Assembly: GCA_016342655.1 (NCBI GenBank) | Contig: JAEINL010000019.1 | Coordinates: forward strand, 1 to 51,215 | Length of the DNA stretch: 51,215 bases | Source: Sphaerochaeta sp. | GTDB lineage: Bacteria; Spirochaetota; Spirochaetia; Sphaerochaetales; Sphaerochaetaceae | Direction of reading: 5' to 3' | Part shown: in pieces, positions 3,235-33,223 of the stretch | Layout of the letters: every line of letters begins with the position of its first letter | How positions within the stretch are numbered: the first letter of the stretch is position 1 | The notes under the pieces: generated by a model | Seen by the model: only the letters and a program-made list of their open reading frames with translations | What the model was told of the DNA's origin: nothing | The model's database searches: none | Translations under genes and position numbers: made by a program

Positions 3235-3271
3235 GAGAACAGAATTTAATGCCCAAAGCCGTATTTGGAAT

Positions 3272-3471
3272 GAAAGGTATCAATACCCCAGGGCAAGCCC
3301 TGGAAAGAGGAGGCGTTGCCTCCTTTTCCGCCCCAAGGGGCTCACGTATCTCACCTTGCTTTCCCGGCCAAACACACCACGCTGATCTAACTATTTTTGG
3401 GACCTATAACCTTGTAGGGGATGGGAACAGTGTTCCCATTCTCTACAGGGTGAAAAACAGACCTTGCAAGG
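3272..3471 (+). mobile_element. Multi-hairpin repeat element, copy 1 (right limit uncertain)
   Basis: The first 99 bases (3272-3370) are nearly identical to 5684-5780. They carry the same chain of short hairpins: GGTATcaATACC, CCAGGGCaaGCCCTGG, GGAGGCgttGCCTCC and CCCCaaGGGG. Both copies directly follow GGAAT. The remainder differs from copy 2. It holds a 20-bp near-perfect hairpin (arms 3410-3429 and 3431-3450 around a single G) and a perfect palindrome ACCTTGCAAGGT around 3460-3471. No protein is encoded, so it must be mobilised in trans if it moves. It sits between the lysC promoter and the MATE gene. Confidence 0.6.
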
Positions 3472-3614: not shown

Positions 3615-4994
3615 GTGCACCCAATTCAAGAGAACAAGATGGGCATCAAGCCCATACCTTCGTTAGTACTATCCATGTCTTTTCCCATCATGATCAGCAT
3701 GATGGTCCAAGCCCTCTACAATATCGTCGACAGTATTTTTTTGGCACAATATAGCGAGGTAGCCCTTACAGCCGTGTCCCTAGCCTTTCCCATGCAGAAC
3801 CTACTCATTGCAGTGGCAGTTGGAACATCCTTGGGAGTGAACTCCCTGCTGGCAAGAAAACTGGGTGCCAAGGACTATGTGGGAGCTGAAAAGGCGGCAA
3901 ACAATGGTCTGACACTCTCCTTCTTCAGCTGGATACTCTTTGCCATTCTAGGGCTCTTCTTCTCCAAGACCTTCTTCGGGTTCTTCACTGATGATGCAAA
4001 TCTCCTACAGATGGGTACCCAGTACGTAACCATTTGCTTCTTCTTCTCTTTCGCCATCTTTGTAGACATCACGTGCGAGCGCATCCTTCAGGCCACAGGG
4101 GACACCATCCACCCCATGATCATCCAGAGCACAGGTGCCATCATAAACATCATACTCGACCCCATCCTCATTTTCGGGCTCTTTGGTTTTCCATCCATGG
4201 GTGTTTTGGGGGCGGCCATTGCCACCGTCATTGGCCAGCATGTGGCATCCCTGCTTGCCATCTACTATGTGCGCAAGAACAAGGAAGTGAAGATCAGGGC
4301 AAAGTACTTCAAACTTGAAAAGCGTACCGTCATTGACATCTACGCCGTTGGCCTTCCTTCGATCATCATGCAGGCCATTGGCACAATTATGACAACCAGC
4401 CTCAACAAGCTGCTCATTTCCTTCGGGACAGCAGCGGTCTCAGTCTTTGGTGTCTACTTCAGGTTGCAGTCCTTGGTCTTCATGCCCATCTTCGGTCTGA
4501 ACAGTGGAATGATCCCAGTCCTGGGGTTCAACTACGGGGCAAAGAATCCCAAGAGAATGATGGAGACCATCAAGGTGGGACTGATCGTATCGCTGCTGAT
4601 TATGACAACAGGCTTCGCCATATTCAGGTTCTTACCAGGGACTCTTCTTTCCTGGTTCAACGCCTCAGATGAGATGATGGCAATCGGGAAAATAGCCCTG
4701 CCCAGGATAAGCCTCTGCTACATCAGCGCTGGCATCTGCATAGCCTTAGGGGCTCTCTTCCAAGCTGTAGGGGACGGATACATCAGCATACTGATCTCCA
4801 TCACCCGTCAGCTCGTATTCCTGCTTCCTGTAGCATACCTCTTGGGACATTTTTTCGGACTCGATGCCGTCTGGTATGCCTTCATCATAGCTGAAAGCTC
4901 TGCACTGGGCCTCTCACTCTTCTTCTTTTTCAGGGTATACAAGAAGCGGATACAGCCTCTCTATGCTACAAGCCAAGTGTACTTTAGTGATTAG
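3615..4994 (+). CDS. MATE-family multidrug/cation efflux transporter
   Basis: This is an inner-membrane antiporter of the MATE (NorM/DinF) family, expected to expel drugs or organic cations using H+ or Na+. The 459 residues form about twelve hydrophobic segments. The first is preceded by the typical opening PSLVLSMSFPIMISMMVQA, and the matching half-repeat begins near FPSIIMQAIGTIMTTSLNK. The start is a GTG at 3615, with AAGGA 6-7 bases upstream; an in-frame ATG at 3639 is the alternative. The last ~210 bases and the following 70 are repeated almost exactly at 7595-7873. The true chromosomal 3' end could therefore be either copy. Confidence 0.9.
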   Translation: MHPIQENKMGIKPIPSLVLSMSFPIMISMMVQALYNIVDSIFLAQYSEVALTAVSLAFPMQNLLIAVAVGTSLGVNSLLARKLGAKDYVGAEKAANNGLTLSFFSWILFAILGLFFSKTFFGFFTDDANLLQMGTQYVTICFFFSFAIFVDITCERILQATGDTIHPMIIQSTGAIINIILDPILIFGLFGFPSMGVLGAAIATVIGQHVASLLAIYYVRKNKEVKIRAKYFKLEKRTVIDIYAVGLPSIIMQAIGTIMTTSLNKLLISFGTAAVSVFGVYFRLQSLVFMPIFGLNSGMIPVLGFNYGAKNPKRMMETIKVGLIVSLLIMTTGFAIFRFLPGTLLSWFNASDEMMAIGKIALPRISLCYISAGICIALGALFQAVGDGYISILISITRQLVFLLPVAYLLGHFFGLDAVWYAFIIAESSALGLSLFFFFRVYKKRIQPLYATSQVYFSD

Positions 4995-5065
4995 GATATT
5001 TTCCTTCCCTGTAGCTCAGACAGAAACCAAGGGGGGGGGGTGAAGGAGAAAGGCTGTGAGAATAG
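4786..5065 (+). repeat. 280-bp direct repeat, left copy (MATE 3' end)
   Basis: It matches 7595-7873 with about ten substitutions and one base difference in a G run (10 versus 9 G). The repeat covers the last 69 or so codons of the MATE gene and 71 bases after its stop. Together with the right copy it brackets the rloAB cassette. Confidence 0.95.
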
Positions 5066-5321
5066 GCATAACTACTCAGTAGAAGCAAATGTATAAAGAC
5101 TCTGAATCACAACAGGGGGGAAATGCTACATATTTTTCCCACCCTCTTCTAAAACCCTATATATAGCTTTGAGTCTAAATTCCAATGACTTTGCTCGAGG
5201 GCCTCCATAGGTGACAATACATCTAACTTTTGGGAGGCTCATCATACTAGGGAACAGGCTTGAGGTAACACACAGGGATTCAGTTGCCTAAGGATTTTCA
5301 AAGGTTGAGTGATAAAAACTG
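5066..5321. other. Spacer inside the bracketed cassette
   Basis: No gene was seen in these 256 bases. It starts exactly where the left direct repeat ends. Near its right end AAGGTTGA and TCAACCTT (around 5300-5340) could form a weak stem that overlaps the end of rloB and might act as its terminator. Confidence 0.35.
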
Positions 5322-6123
5322 TCATAAGCTTTCAACCTTCTTTAAGATCTCTTCAACCAGTGCATACACGGTAGTCACTGAATATTGAGATGTAGGAGAT
5401 AGTTTTTGTAGGCTCTGGTATGAAGATTTGCATTTCTGTTTACTTCTTTGTATTGCCTTTATCTCATTTCCATACATCTTCAACTTCAAATAGATAGATT
5501 TGTCTGCTTTGTCATATTCTTGCTTTGTAATACGTTTGAAGGCGTGTCCAAATTTTTCACAGCTTTGGACTGAAGTCTCAGAAAAGGGAGGATCCTCAAG
5601 ATATGCATGGAGCCAGATTTCGAAACAGGGGTTTGACCATCCTGCATGAATTTCTTTTTGTTTTGCCTCTTCGATGATGGAATGAAAGGTATCAATACCC
5701 CAGGGCAAGCCCTGGGCCCAGGAGGCGTTGCCTCCTTTTCCGCCCCAAGGGGCGGGGTATCTCACCTTGCTTTCCCGCCACTCGCTCGGTAATGGAAGCA
5801 TGCTTCCGCTACTCTCGCTTCGTTGGGGAATCAAAGTTGCTAACCTGGTCACGATCAAACACAATCCATGGAATTCTGTAATGCGGGTCTTTATCCAGTT
5901 CTTCAACACATCGTGACACCAAATTTTTGGTTTCAACTTTTGGTATTACTTTAATAACCAAATGATTCTGTACTTCTCTTGGCAGAGAATCACGAAACCC
6001 TGTGAAATAGTTCTCTTCTGTTTCTTTAGTATCAGTTAGTATAAGATAGTATCCAAGTTCTGGAATTCGGAAGGCTCGCATATTTCGAGACTTCCGTTTT
6101 CCCTCATGATTTTTCCTACTCAT
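5322..6123 (-). pseudogene. rloB: RloB-family protein, split by a 148-bp insertion
   Basis: RloB-family proteins pair with an RloA ATPase in restriction-linked and abortive-infection-like loci (compare AbiLii). The N-terminal part starts at ATG 6123, overlaps the rloA stop by 8 bases, and runs to FDRDQVSNFDS. The frame is then lost inside the hairpin element at 5684-5831. The C-terminal part resumes with IIEEAKQKEIHAGWSNPCF, EIWLHAYLEDPP and on to the stop at 5322. Joining the two flanks at the shared GGAAT gives an uninterrupted frame of 217 codons plus stop, the expected family size. As it stands, translation frameshifts at the element. It is probably inactive unless the element is removed or bypassed. 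Confidence 0.85.
5684..5831 (+). mobile_element. Multi-hairpin repeat element, copy 2, inserted in rloB
   Basis: This 148-bp non-coding element is flanked by GGAAT (5679-5683 on the left; 5827-5831 at its right end). Its limits are set independently by the rloB reading frame. It contains consecutive hairpins at 5688-5699, 5700-5715, 5721-5735 and 5741-5754, and a perfect palindrome GGAAGCATGCTTCC at 5794-5807. The first 97 bases match copy 1 (3272-3370). The target-specific left junction and chained hairpins recall non-autonomous IS200/IS605-type or HEARO-like elements, but I cannot assign a family. A 5-bp target duplication is the other reading of the GGAAT copies. Confidence 0.85.
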
Positions 6124-7420
6124 ACAGCTGCTCACCCTCTGCAGCAGAATCATCTGGGAATAAAATTTGCATGGTACTTACTGAGGGGATTGCCCCATAT
6201 TTCCCGAGAAGATAATTCTTTTCATAGTGCTCATCCTTCCGGATCTTCGTTCCCTCTTCAGGCTTGAAGTCTGCTAGAGAATAGAGCGAACTTTCTCCTT
6301 TTGAATTTTTCCCAGTGAACCAGATCTCATCACGTCGAAGACTCTTATTTGCAAGATGCCACGTGTCATGTGTAGTGAATAGAAGTTGAGCATGATTAGG
6401 ATTTGTTCTTGGATCAGAGAACAATCTGATTAGATTACGTACAAGCAATGGATGTAACCGAGAATTTAGCTCATCTACAAAAAGAACAGTCCCATGTTCC
6501 AAAACATTCATCAGCACAGGGTAGAGGGAAAACATTTTTATCGTACCTGAACTCTCATAATGCAACCCTATCCCAATTAAGTCTTCACTATCAATTGCCT
6601 GGTGCAAAGATTCAATATAGATTCGTTTGGGTGCGTCTTCATCTTCTGAAGGAAGTTCTTCTATCTTGAATCCTTTTATCGTTTCATCAAAAGAAGCAAA
6701 AAACGTAATGACTCTGTCTTGAATTTCCTTTTCTTTAAAGTTGTTAGGGAGACGGTTGCAGAGGAAATAATTCTCGCTCGGGTCGCCATAATCAATGGTT
6801 TCGCACTGATAGAACCACTGAACAATTGCCTGGCAGGTATGTACCTTCAGTTTGTTCCCCAAAGAAATAACCAATACCTCAGGTTCAAGCGCCGTGAGCA
6901 AGTTGTTTGTATCTGCCTTCGAGAGTCCTGAAAAATCATTTTCCTGTTCATTCCGACTTCTGAAGAATACATTTTTACTTTTTCTGGCTGTCTTTGCTTT
7001 CTCATTCAGCCACTCTTCAACTATTCCCTTTTCATCAATGGAAAAACCATAGTTGGAAGTCTTCAAGGTAAGAGGATCAAGGAGATAGACTTCAAAGGAT
7101 GCAGGTTTATTGTTCTGCTTTGTCCATGCAAAACGAGGAGGTTGGGGGAAATTTGATGATTCGTCTGTAGCTTTTACCGTCTCAGTGGCACCCCCATACT
7201 GAAAGGACCGTACTACCAGATGTTTCATATAGGAGAAAGCTTTATACACATTGGATTTTCCACTTGCATTAGCGCCAAAGATAGCACTGATTGGAAGTAC
7301 TTTCTCATTAGCTAGCTGTACTACGTGGTGAGAAAGTTCAGAAATTCCGGTAGCCGAAAGATCAAGGGATGCTTCATCGTGAAAGGATTTATAATTGGAA
7401 AAATTGAACTGCAGTAACAT
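6116..7420 (-). CDS. rloA: RloA-type AAA-family ATPase (putative defence)
   Basis: This is a 434-residue ABC/SMC-like ATPase of the RloA/AbiLi kind, which is found in anti-phage and restriction-linked islands with RloB. The N-terminus reads LQFNFSNYKSFHDEASLDL, typical of the AAA_15/AAA_21 group. Walker A GANASGKS is at 49-56, Walker B LFVDELNSRLHP near 313-324 and a switch THD with histidine near 351. The start at 7420 has AGGAG about 7 bases upstream. The frame overlaps rloB by 8 bases, suggesting translational coupling. The gene and its upstream region are visibly richer in A+T than neighbouring genes, consistent with horizontal gain. Its own frame is intact although its partner is broken. 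Confidence 0.85.
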   Translation of the reverse strand: MLLQFNFSNYKSFHDEASLDLSATGISELSHHVVQLANEKVLPISAIFGANASGKSNVYKAFSYMKHLVVRSFQYGGATETVKATDESSNFPQPPRFAWTKQNNKPASFEVYLLDPLTLKTSNYGFSIDEKGIVEEWLNEKAKTARKSKNVFFRSRNEQENDFSGLSKADTNNLLTALEPEVLVISLGNKLKVHTCQAIVQWFYQCETIDYGDPSENYFLCNRLPNNFKEKEIQDRVITFFASFDETIKGFKIEELPSEDEDAPKRIYIESLHQAIDSEDLIGIGLHYESSGTIKMFSLYPVLMNVLEHGTVLFVDELNSRLHPLLVRNLIRLFSDPRTNPNHAQLLFTTHDTWHLANKSLRRDEIWFTGKNSKGESSLYSLADFKPEEGTKIRKDEHYEKNYLLGKYGAIPSVSTMQILFPDDSAAEGEQLYE

Positions 7421-7594
7421 GGATATCTCCTTGTATCTGTACTATGCACCAAATTGATAGAAAAATCAACATAATTTTGTGATAATTTCTCAATTATATG
7501 TATTTTTTTATGAATATATACTGAAATTAGAAGTAATACTATGAATTTATCACAGATATACGTCTTACCGGATTCTTTTATATTGAATATCTCT
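7421..7594 (-). promoter_or_regulatory. A+T-rich upstream region of rloA
   Basis: The stretch is strikingly A+T-rich compared with the rest of the window. A weak promoter TTGATT-17-CATAGT lies just before the rloA ribosome site on the minus strand. The region ends where the right direct repeat begins. Confidence 0.35.
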
Positions 7595-7873
7595 GCATGC
7601 TGATATCCATCACCCGTCAGCTCGTATTCCTGCTTCCTGTAGCATACCTCTTGGGACATTTTTTCACCCTCGATGCCGTCTGGTATGCCTTCATCATAGC
7701 TGAAAGCTCTGCGCTCGCCCTCTCACTCTTCTTCTTTTTCAGGGTATACAAGAAGCGGATACAGCCTCTCTATGCTACAAGCCAAGTGTCCTTTAGTGAT
7801 TAGGATATTTTCCTTCCCTGTAGCTCAGACAGAAACCAAGGGGGGGGGTGAAGGAGAAAGGTTGTGAGAATAG
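7595..7873 (+). pseudogene. Right copy of the 280-bp repeat: orphan MATE C-terminus
   Basis: This repeats 4786-5065 at about 96% identity. It contains an open frame of 68 codons (7597-7803) that reproduces the C-terminal end of the MATE transporter with a few changes (GHFFTLD for GHFFGLD, SALALS for SALGLS) and the same stop. It has no ribosome site or upstream part, so it is a gene fragment. It marks the right edge of the rloAB cassette. Confidence 0.93.
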
Positions 7874-32827: not shown

Positions 32828-33135
32828 GCATATCAAAAAAACGACTTAAAGAAATCCAAGCATTCAAGGACGATGATGTCTCCGATATTCCTGAGATGAC
32901 AGAAGAGCAGCTCTCGGATCTAAAGCCGTCTCATCTGCGTAATCCTGATAATTATCGTCCAGTAAAGAAAAAGATCTGCATGTACATCGATGCCGATGTT
33001 CTCGAATGGTATAAATTGGATGGCAAAAGAGGGTACCAGACGAAGATGAATCAGGTGCTTCGCCAAAATATGTTACACGAATCATCTCCTGCATATGGCA
33101 AAGCTAAGGATACTTCTGATGATAAAAAACAATAA
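32824..33135 (+). CDS. brnA: BrnA-type antitoxin / ribbon-helix-helix repressor
   Basis: The protein has 103 residues. The family core is visible near 40-80: YRPVKKKICMYIDADVLEW followed by YQTKMNQVLRQNM, a ribbon-helix-helix DNA-binding fold. The N-terminal half is acidic and probably bound the toxin. The operon position and operator fit an autorepressor. With brnT gutted, it is an orphan antitoxin that may still regulate its own or other promoters. A 15-base match to the left end of the hairpin element starts immediately behind its stop codon. Confidence 0.85.
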   Translation: MSISKKRLKEIQAFKDDDVSDIPEMTEEQLSDLKPSHLRNPDNYRPVKKKICMYIDADVLEWYKLDGKRGYQTKMNQVLRQNMLHESSPAYGKAKDTSDDKKQ

Positions 33136-33150
33136 AAGGTATCAATACCT
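33136..33150 (+). repeat. Fragment of the hairpin element's left end
   Basis: AAAGGTATCAATACC is identical to the start of the two larger copies (3273 and 5685 onward). Similarity stops after about 15-17 bases. It lacks the GGAAT flank. It is either a remnant or a shared terminal hairpin. Confidence 0.5.
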
Positions 33151-33223
33151 CCAGATTACAAAACACTACCTTCTTGGTAAAATACTTCCTCTACCCTCTT
33201 GCCAAAACAAAAGAATAGGAGTA

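Follow-up and report, generated by a model that had tools for sequence, protein, structure and literature searches.

The 148-nt insert found within rloB of this Sphaerochaeta sp. genome is a young member of a mobile element family of Sphaerochaetaceae that encodes no protein and is present in high copy number. The event itself is ordinary, a mobile element breaking a gene, and involves a family of which we found no description. Disruption of rloB, a phage-defense gene, by insertion of the element is supported by the reading frame restored upon joining of its two parts. We regard it as fairly probable that these repeats constitute a new non-autonomous, REP-like family moving as single-stranded DNA, probably with an HTH-tailed RAYT (subclass 2.1 or RAYT group 1).

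Results

Within the window, by which we mean the whole stretch of 51,215 nt analyzed here, rloB runs on the minus strand from 6123 to 5322 and is split after codon 98 (GAT) by 148 nt. Its 5' part (codons 1-98; 5830-6123, minus strand) and its 3' part (codons 99-217 and the stop codon; 5322-5681, minus strand) were delimited using the joined frame, Pfam and homologues. An AAA ATPase gene (6116-7420, minus strand; PF13304), which is rloA by position, overlaps the start of rloB. Excision of the 148 nt results in an unbroken rloB frame of 217 codons, and the joined protein is a full-profile member of the Pfam RloB family (1-195 of 195, 114.2 bits). When searched apart, the two pieces matched profile positions 1-81 at 39.7 bits and 87-195 at 67.2 bits. 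These results confirmed the claim of a sequence-only reading of the window that the insert interrupts rloB precisely and that its exact excision restores the gene. They also support plain inactivation, which that reading had named as the simplest case, as the Pfam match falls into two pieces and becomes whole in the joined protein.

The GGAAT present at both ends of the insert allows its limits to slide, and the limits first proposed (5684-5831) and those set by the family alignment (5682-5829) give an identical excised product. As its length of 148 nt is not divisible by 3, the insert shifts the frame, as had been pointed out, and in-frame reading into it (FDSPTKRE) reaches a stop at the element's seventh codon. 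A search revealed homologues of RloB in 40 of 392 genomes of the phylum. We fetched 30 homologous rloB loci, one of which was the window itself, and all 17 alignments that span the junction cross it with at most small gaps, as predicted for related genes. The best homologue, from a genome within the genus (G095), shares 43% identity and has one TGA inside its match.

The rloA-rloB pair is bracketed by a 262-bp direct repeat (window 4778-5039 and 7587-7848, 95% identical) that corresponds to the duplicated 3' end of a transporter gene resembling MATE by eye, as if rloA-rloB had arrived as an island. At locus L216 of S. halotolerans, two ORF pairs that look like rloA-rloB by eye stand side by side, and element copies at 1376-1529 and 5247-5400 are located one at or beside each rloB-like ORF.

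The element in rloB (5682-5829, minus strand) extends from TCCCC to TTTCAT and was matched at 177 bits by model R1, itself built from an alignment that includes the rloB copy. A second, more diverged copy of the family lies at 3270-3402 (minus strand, 115 bits), at the start of an ORF that is aspartokinase-like by eye. At 33132-33154 (minus strand), 23 bases match the right end alone and may be a relic. Across the genome, BLAST revealed at least 40 near full-length copies with 91-100% identity (the best 40 of 189 candidates). Pattern searches allowing up to 2 mismatches returned 129 left-end and 161 right-end matches, and since reversed-pattern controls for both ends gave 0 matches in the same genome with the same tolerance, these matches are not due to chance. 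The fetched stretches of this genome contain 108 left ends, at least one of which was counted twice; 95 have a right end in range and 13 do not, and most elements measure 148, 154 or 155 nt. Eighteen copies, the rloB copy included, share at least 97% identity with the rloB copy, indicating that the family moved recently.

A search of 138 genomes of the taxonomic family with a covariance model built from 20 diverse copies detected the element in 15, matches per genome being counted among the best 22 places scored. A pattern scan of named genomes returned at least 63 stretches, 56 of them from Sphaerochaetaceae; the 7 others were scattered single hits that we take as chance. The element had no match in plasmids or phages, nor in viral contigs when searched with the exact pattern, and a phage or plasmid origin was rejected on this basis. 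Rfam gave no match above threshold and no intron family, the only hit being Acido-1 at 16.6 bits against a cut-off of 50. A literature search returned no account of a repeat family of this kind in Sphaerochaeta, an absence that is not proof. With many near-identical copies at unrelated sites and no protein gene of its own, the repeat is a non-autonomous element, or a MITE in the broad sense. At four loci of genome G121 (L202, L205, L206 and L209), the same left end, CCCCAACGAAGCGAG, is followed by a GC-rich interior of a very different kind, which points to a second type of element with a common left end.

Directly before the rloB copy, the left flank TTTGAT (5830-5835, minus strand) holds the target TTBAT, as identified from the target logo and the sequence, and the first base after the element is a T (5681, minus strand). 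Copies for the logo were chosen by the right-end pattern with 4 mismatches allowed. Their left flank was TTBAT in 95 copies from this genome and 64 other copies, with TTCAT, TTGAT and TTTAT the commonest forms; the AT before the element was partly set by the search pattern, but TTB and the downstream T were not. That T followed the element in 98% of the 95 and 89% of the 64 copies, and was missing in about 2 and 7 of them, respectively. The right end TTTCAT is constant whatever the left flank, which indicates that it belongs to the element and is not a duplication. The downstream T could also fit a target duplication of 1-3 bp (ATT at most). No terminal inverted repeats were found between the element ends. 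The element does not correspond to a classical DDE MITE, as its ends lack inverted repeats and any duplication is ambiguous and at most ATT. Judged by sequence alone, it has the layout of an IS200/IS605-type element, with a fixed short left target that is kept and a target-like site at the right end.

To compare occupied with empty sites, 94 copies of this genome were set against loci of other genomes, and counterparts were found for three. The copy in a YibE/F gene (L021) has an empty site in G098 with a gap of 0 and DNA flanks 91-93% identical, the YibE/F homologue of G098 being 96% identical over the 137-residue query. Copy L026 has one in G121, also with a gap of 0, at 83% identity, where the target itself has diverged. 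The third comparison, of copy L116 with several relatives (about 75% identical, gap 4 or -1), is less clear. Precise empty sites in relatives mark the element as mobile, and together with its high copy number, constant ends and common target they strongly support the earlier proposal of a non-autonomous transposable element. Furthermore, 10 of 20 listed interrupted ORFs were searched against Pfam as separate pieces. The profile continues across the insertion in YibE_F (2-126, then 128-239) and AIRS_C (2-70, then 74-154). Positions 44-81 of the AbiEii profile were unmatched between the pieces, and several pieces of the 10 ORFs had no profile match.

Of 79 copies flanked by 900 bp in both directions, 25 lie within ORFs (9 in sense only, 14 in antisense only, 2 in both), compared to about 75% of 825 random nearby positions. 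Young copies were found in ORFs more often than older ones (10 of 15 vs 15 of 64, Fisher 0.0038), as expected if harmful insertions get lost. We observed no overall relation with gene direction, since flanking genes were co-oriented with the element in 43 of 83 cases upstream and 40 of 83 downstream.

The element strand coincides with the G-rich strand for 76 of 107 copies in this genome (p = 1.6e-5) and for 27 of 39 copies in named Sphaerochaetaceae records (p = 0.024; 7 unrelated chance hits excluded). Likewise, pairs of copies on a contig shared the same strand in 63 of 82 cases in this genome (p = 1.5e-4, among 100 of 129 places) and in 22 of 25 in G093 (p = 6e-4, among 28 of 54 places); the counts for G108 (2 of 4, 14 of 14 places) and G121 (6 of 9, among 20 of 40 places) were not significant. 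Copies whose neighboring genes are both on the opposite strand showed hardly any skew (13 of 25 positive). The single-contig genome G113 has its cumulative skew minimum near 2.0 Mb (20 sampled stretches), and 6 of its 8 distinct listed places are on the strand that is leading under this reading of the skew; another count gives 9 element matches. The leading strand is generally the G-rich one. With leading and lagging strands assigned from GC skew, copies tend toward the inferred leading strand, as expected for insertion by a Y1 (HUH) transposase into the lagging-strand template, and the bias is moderate. IS608, ISDra2 and TnpA_REP are described as acting on the lagging-strand template in the available text of PMC6006769. 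The shared strand of copies on contigs had also raised the idea of an integron attC array, which was rejected as the bias follows GC skew and copies lie inside unrelated genes.

The sequence-only reading described five consecutive hairpins; the DNA centroid fold of the element shows four, and a small GGTATTGATACC stem-loop was read from the sequence in addition. In the left-end domain (5773-5829, minus strand), a longer weak stem beginning at the element's first base encloses an apical hairpin, GTAGCGGAAGC/GCTTCCATTAC. The right-end domain (5682-5772, minus strand) comprises three strong hairpins in a nearly invariant AAGGT...ACCTT closing stem, and the end TTTCAT. RNAalifold on 20 copies also closed the left domain on the first base and placed three hairpins within the closing stem of the right domain. 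The RNA fold of 5660-5850 had a z-score of -3.26 and the DNA fold of the element one of -1.86, 6 of 200 shuffles being equally good. Tested alone as DNA in two copies, the right domain (z -2.84 and -1.75) did better than the left domain, whose folding as single-stranded DNA did not surpass that of shuffles (z 1.07 and -0.38). We counted 20 cells with double changes; shuffles had 9.7, none of the 500 reaching as many, and slid controls had 2-8. The number of pairs with double changes (5), however, did not exceed that of shuffles (237 of 500), and the outer stems vary so little that they are unproven.

Seven Y1_Tnp matches were found in this genome, six of which are short or interrupted. The only long uninterrupted Y1 gene, on contig C13, encodes a RAYT-like protein of 269 residues with HYH (HuH) and YIVRNP (Y...NP) motifs and an HTH-like C-terminal tail, the HTH matches being below Pfam cut-offs. 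It scored 61 bits with the NCBI REP-associated transposase model, the cut-off of which is 80. A sequence search with this protein returned no solved structure, and the nearest structure to its AlphaFold model (mean pLDDT 81) was 4er8, in which a RAYT is bound to a REP hairpin, with ISDra2 and IS608 behind. The protein fits subclass 2.1 (RAYT group 1), an assignment made by description and not by tree. According to the available text of PMC6006769, subclass 2.1 RAYTs occur in 14.9% of strains as the second largest subclass, and no REP-like sequences were found near their genes. At locus L085, the RAYT-like gene (1751-2560) comes directly after an ORF resembling dprA by eye, and the same contig holds part of a second RAYT copy about 3 kb further on.

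Of the 138 genomes of the taxonomic family, 17 have RAYT matches at E < 1e-30, with 7 genomes that have weaker matches left out. Such RAYT matches were present in 13 of the 15 genomes with the element vs 4 of 123 others (Fisher 4e-13) and, within the genus, in 9 of 10 vs 4 of 16 (p = 0.0018), both p values being too small as the genomes are related. G098, a genome that is 82% complete, has at least 22 element matches and no RAYT match, and G124 has one element and no RAYT. Conversely, G091, G094, G100 and G106 have RAYT matches, partial in the latter two, and no element. G089 was counted as carrying both on a weak element match (2.6e-5), and the RAYT of G122 contains an internal stop. The RAYTs of G121 are only 33-34% identical, though G121 elements closely resemble those of our genome. 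Among 30 loci fetched around RAYT-like matches, an element within about 1.5 kb was seen just once, in G123, where it lies at the 3' end of the RAYT gene. RAYT genes are therefore not flanked by these repeats as they are by canonical REPs, and the system is not a classical REPtron.

Discussion

We propose that the element moves as single-stranded DNA. At the right end, a Y1 (HUH) transposase would cut after TTTCAT and, at the left end, after the target TTBAT, and the excised strand would insert 3' of another TTBAT, followed by T, exposed on the lagging-strand template. Such an insertion would involve no terminal inverted repeats and probably no target duplication. We infer both the single-stranded chemistry and the cut positions. 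The most likely enzyme would be the C13 RAYT-like protein acting in trans, as is thought for RAYTs with REPs, a link that is correlative and drawn from co-occurrence. In this case, the element has landed in rloB and inactivated the gene.

The element could also be a non-autonomous IS200/IS605 derivative moved by a classical TnpA rather than by the RAYT, and the TnpA could by now be extinct in this strain. We consider this rather unlikely here, although TnpA and TnpB matches are present in the genome, the strand bias fits, and the TTBAT-like target is comparable to TTGAT, the target of ISDra2. The element ends were found at 0 of 7 TnpA loci of this genome and 0 of 30 in the family (about 1.5 kb around each), and only 6 of the 15 genomes with the element have strong Y1 matches (best E < 1e-20). 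Moreover, the non-RAYT Y1 matches are broken or short, yet 18 copies remain at least 97% identical. No autonomous relative with tnpA between the same ends was found within about 1.5 kb around each TnpA/TnpB match. IS200/IS605 parents were rejected as these loci lack the ends in IS arrangement, except for three copies beside partial TnpB matches. The latter, at L049, L168 and L169 in three genomes, lie within about 85 nt of the match on its 5' side and are tentatively read as insertions into tnpB. A role of TnpB itself, in which the right-end hairpins would be an omega-RNA scaffold with a downstream guide and TTBAT its TAM, so that TnpB cuts empty sites and retains the copy, appears very improbable to us. 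Several hairpins do stand directly at the right end, the left flank is TAM-like, TnpB genes exist in this genome, and 3 of 21 TnpB loci have the nearby copies just mentioned. However, these are on the 5' side in both orientations, whereas an omega-RNA would sit at the 3' end, and G121, G122 and G123 each have at least 22 element matches and no TnpB match. No tnpB directly upstream of the element's right end was found among the 21 TnpB loci, and the lack of an Rfam match above threshold also argues against an omega-RNA.

An RNA-level element, intron-like or acting by translational bypass, would allow rloB expression despite the insert. This option of the sequence-only reading could draw on the stable RNA structure and on the frame that is exactly restored on removal, but we give it almost no weight. 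Copies in genes are antisense at least as often as sense and copies mostly lie outside ORFs, so that intron and bypass readings are unsupported; older copies are found in ORFs less often, and no intron family matched. Lastly, the element could be mobilized by an enzyme of another kind whose activity leaves no terminal inverted repeats, for example an IS110-type transposase or a tyrosine or serine recombinase. Such an enzyme would be compatible with the absence of these repeats and with the short target. Neither the strand bias nor the co-occurrence with RAYT would be expected in that case, and we hold it to be improbable.

Single-strand movement with a RAYT-like enzyme, the reading that we prefer, places the family among several known systems. 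PATEs are miniature derivatives of IS200/IS605 elements. Like them, the element has no inverted repeats, hairpins at its ends, a left target that is kept and a target-like right end, and its moderate strand bias may correspond to their lagging-strand bias; unlike them, it has no autonomous parent with its ends in the loci fetched. It resembles REPs and REPINs in being high-copy, short, protein-free, hairpin-forming and mostly outside ORFs, with a RAYT proposed to act in trans whose model has 4er8 as its closest solved relative. It differs from REPs in its length (148-155 nt vs the 20-40 bp given for REPs in the available text of PMC3733652), its two-domain structure, its fixed right end and target, and its proximity to only one of the 30 RAYT-like loci. 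The GT[AG]G at the hairpin foot of canonical REPs is not conserved either, being GTAG in copies of this genome and GGAA or GGAG elsewhere. As far as the available text of PMC6006769 describes them, subclass 2.1 TnpA_Y1 proteins (RAYT group 1) resemble our RAYT in HuH, Y...NP and HTH-like C-terminus, and TIRYT repeats differ from the element in being inverted repeats. The IS605 stem-loops of Borrelia are likewise dispersed, spirochete-borne and IS605-related, but are plasmid-borne and IS605-derived in the available text of PMC2775950, and are set apart here by description, not by sequence.

Judging from the mechanism class only, precise excision that restores rloB, and thereby reversible switching, is possible. 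A bolder reading, on which we are doubtful though not dismissive, is that the family may be the missing mobile partner of HTH-tailed RAYTs (subclass 2.1 or group 1). It would be a single-stranded DNA element of about 150 nt with two domains, cut at TTTCAT and inserted 3' of TTBAT on the lagging-strand template, and its replication-coupled precise excision could switch genes like rloB back on. This link to a transposase class without a known partner is attractive and unproven. Since its ends and target are defined, some of its many copies are young and a RAYT co-occurs with it, the element family provides a directly testable substrate, and rloB is an example of a defense gene silenced by an element that probably belongs to a class known to excise without a scar.
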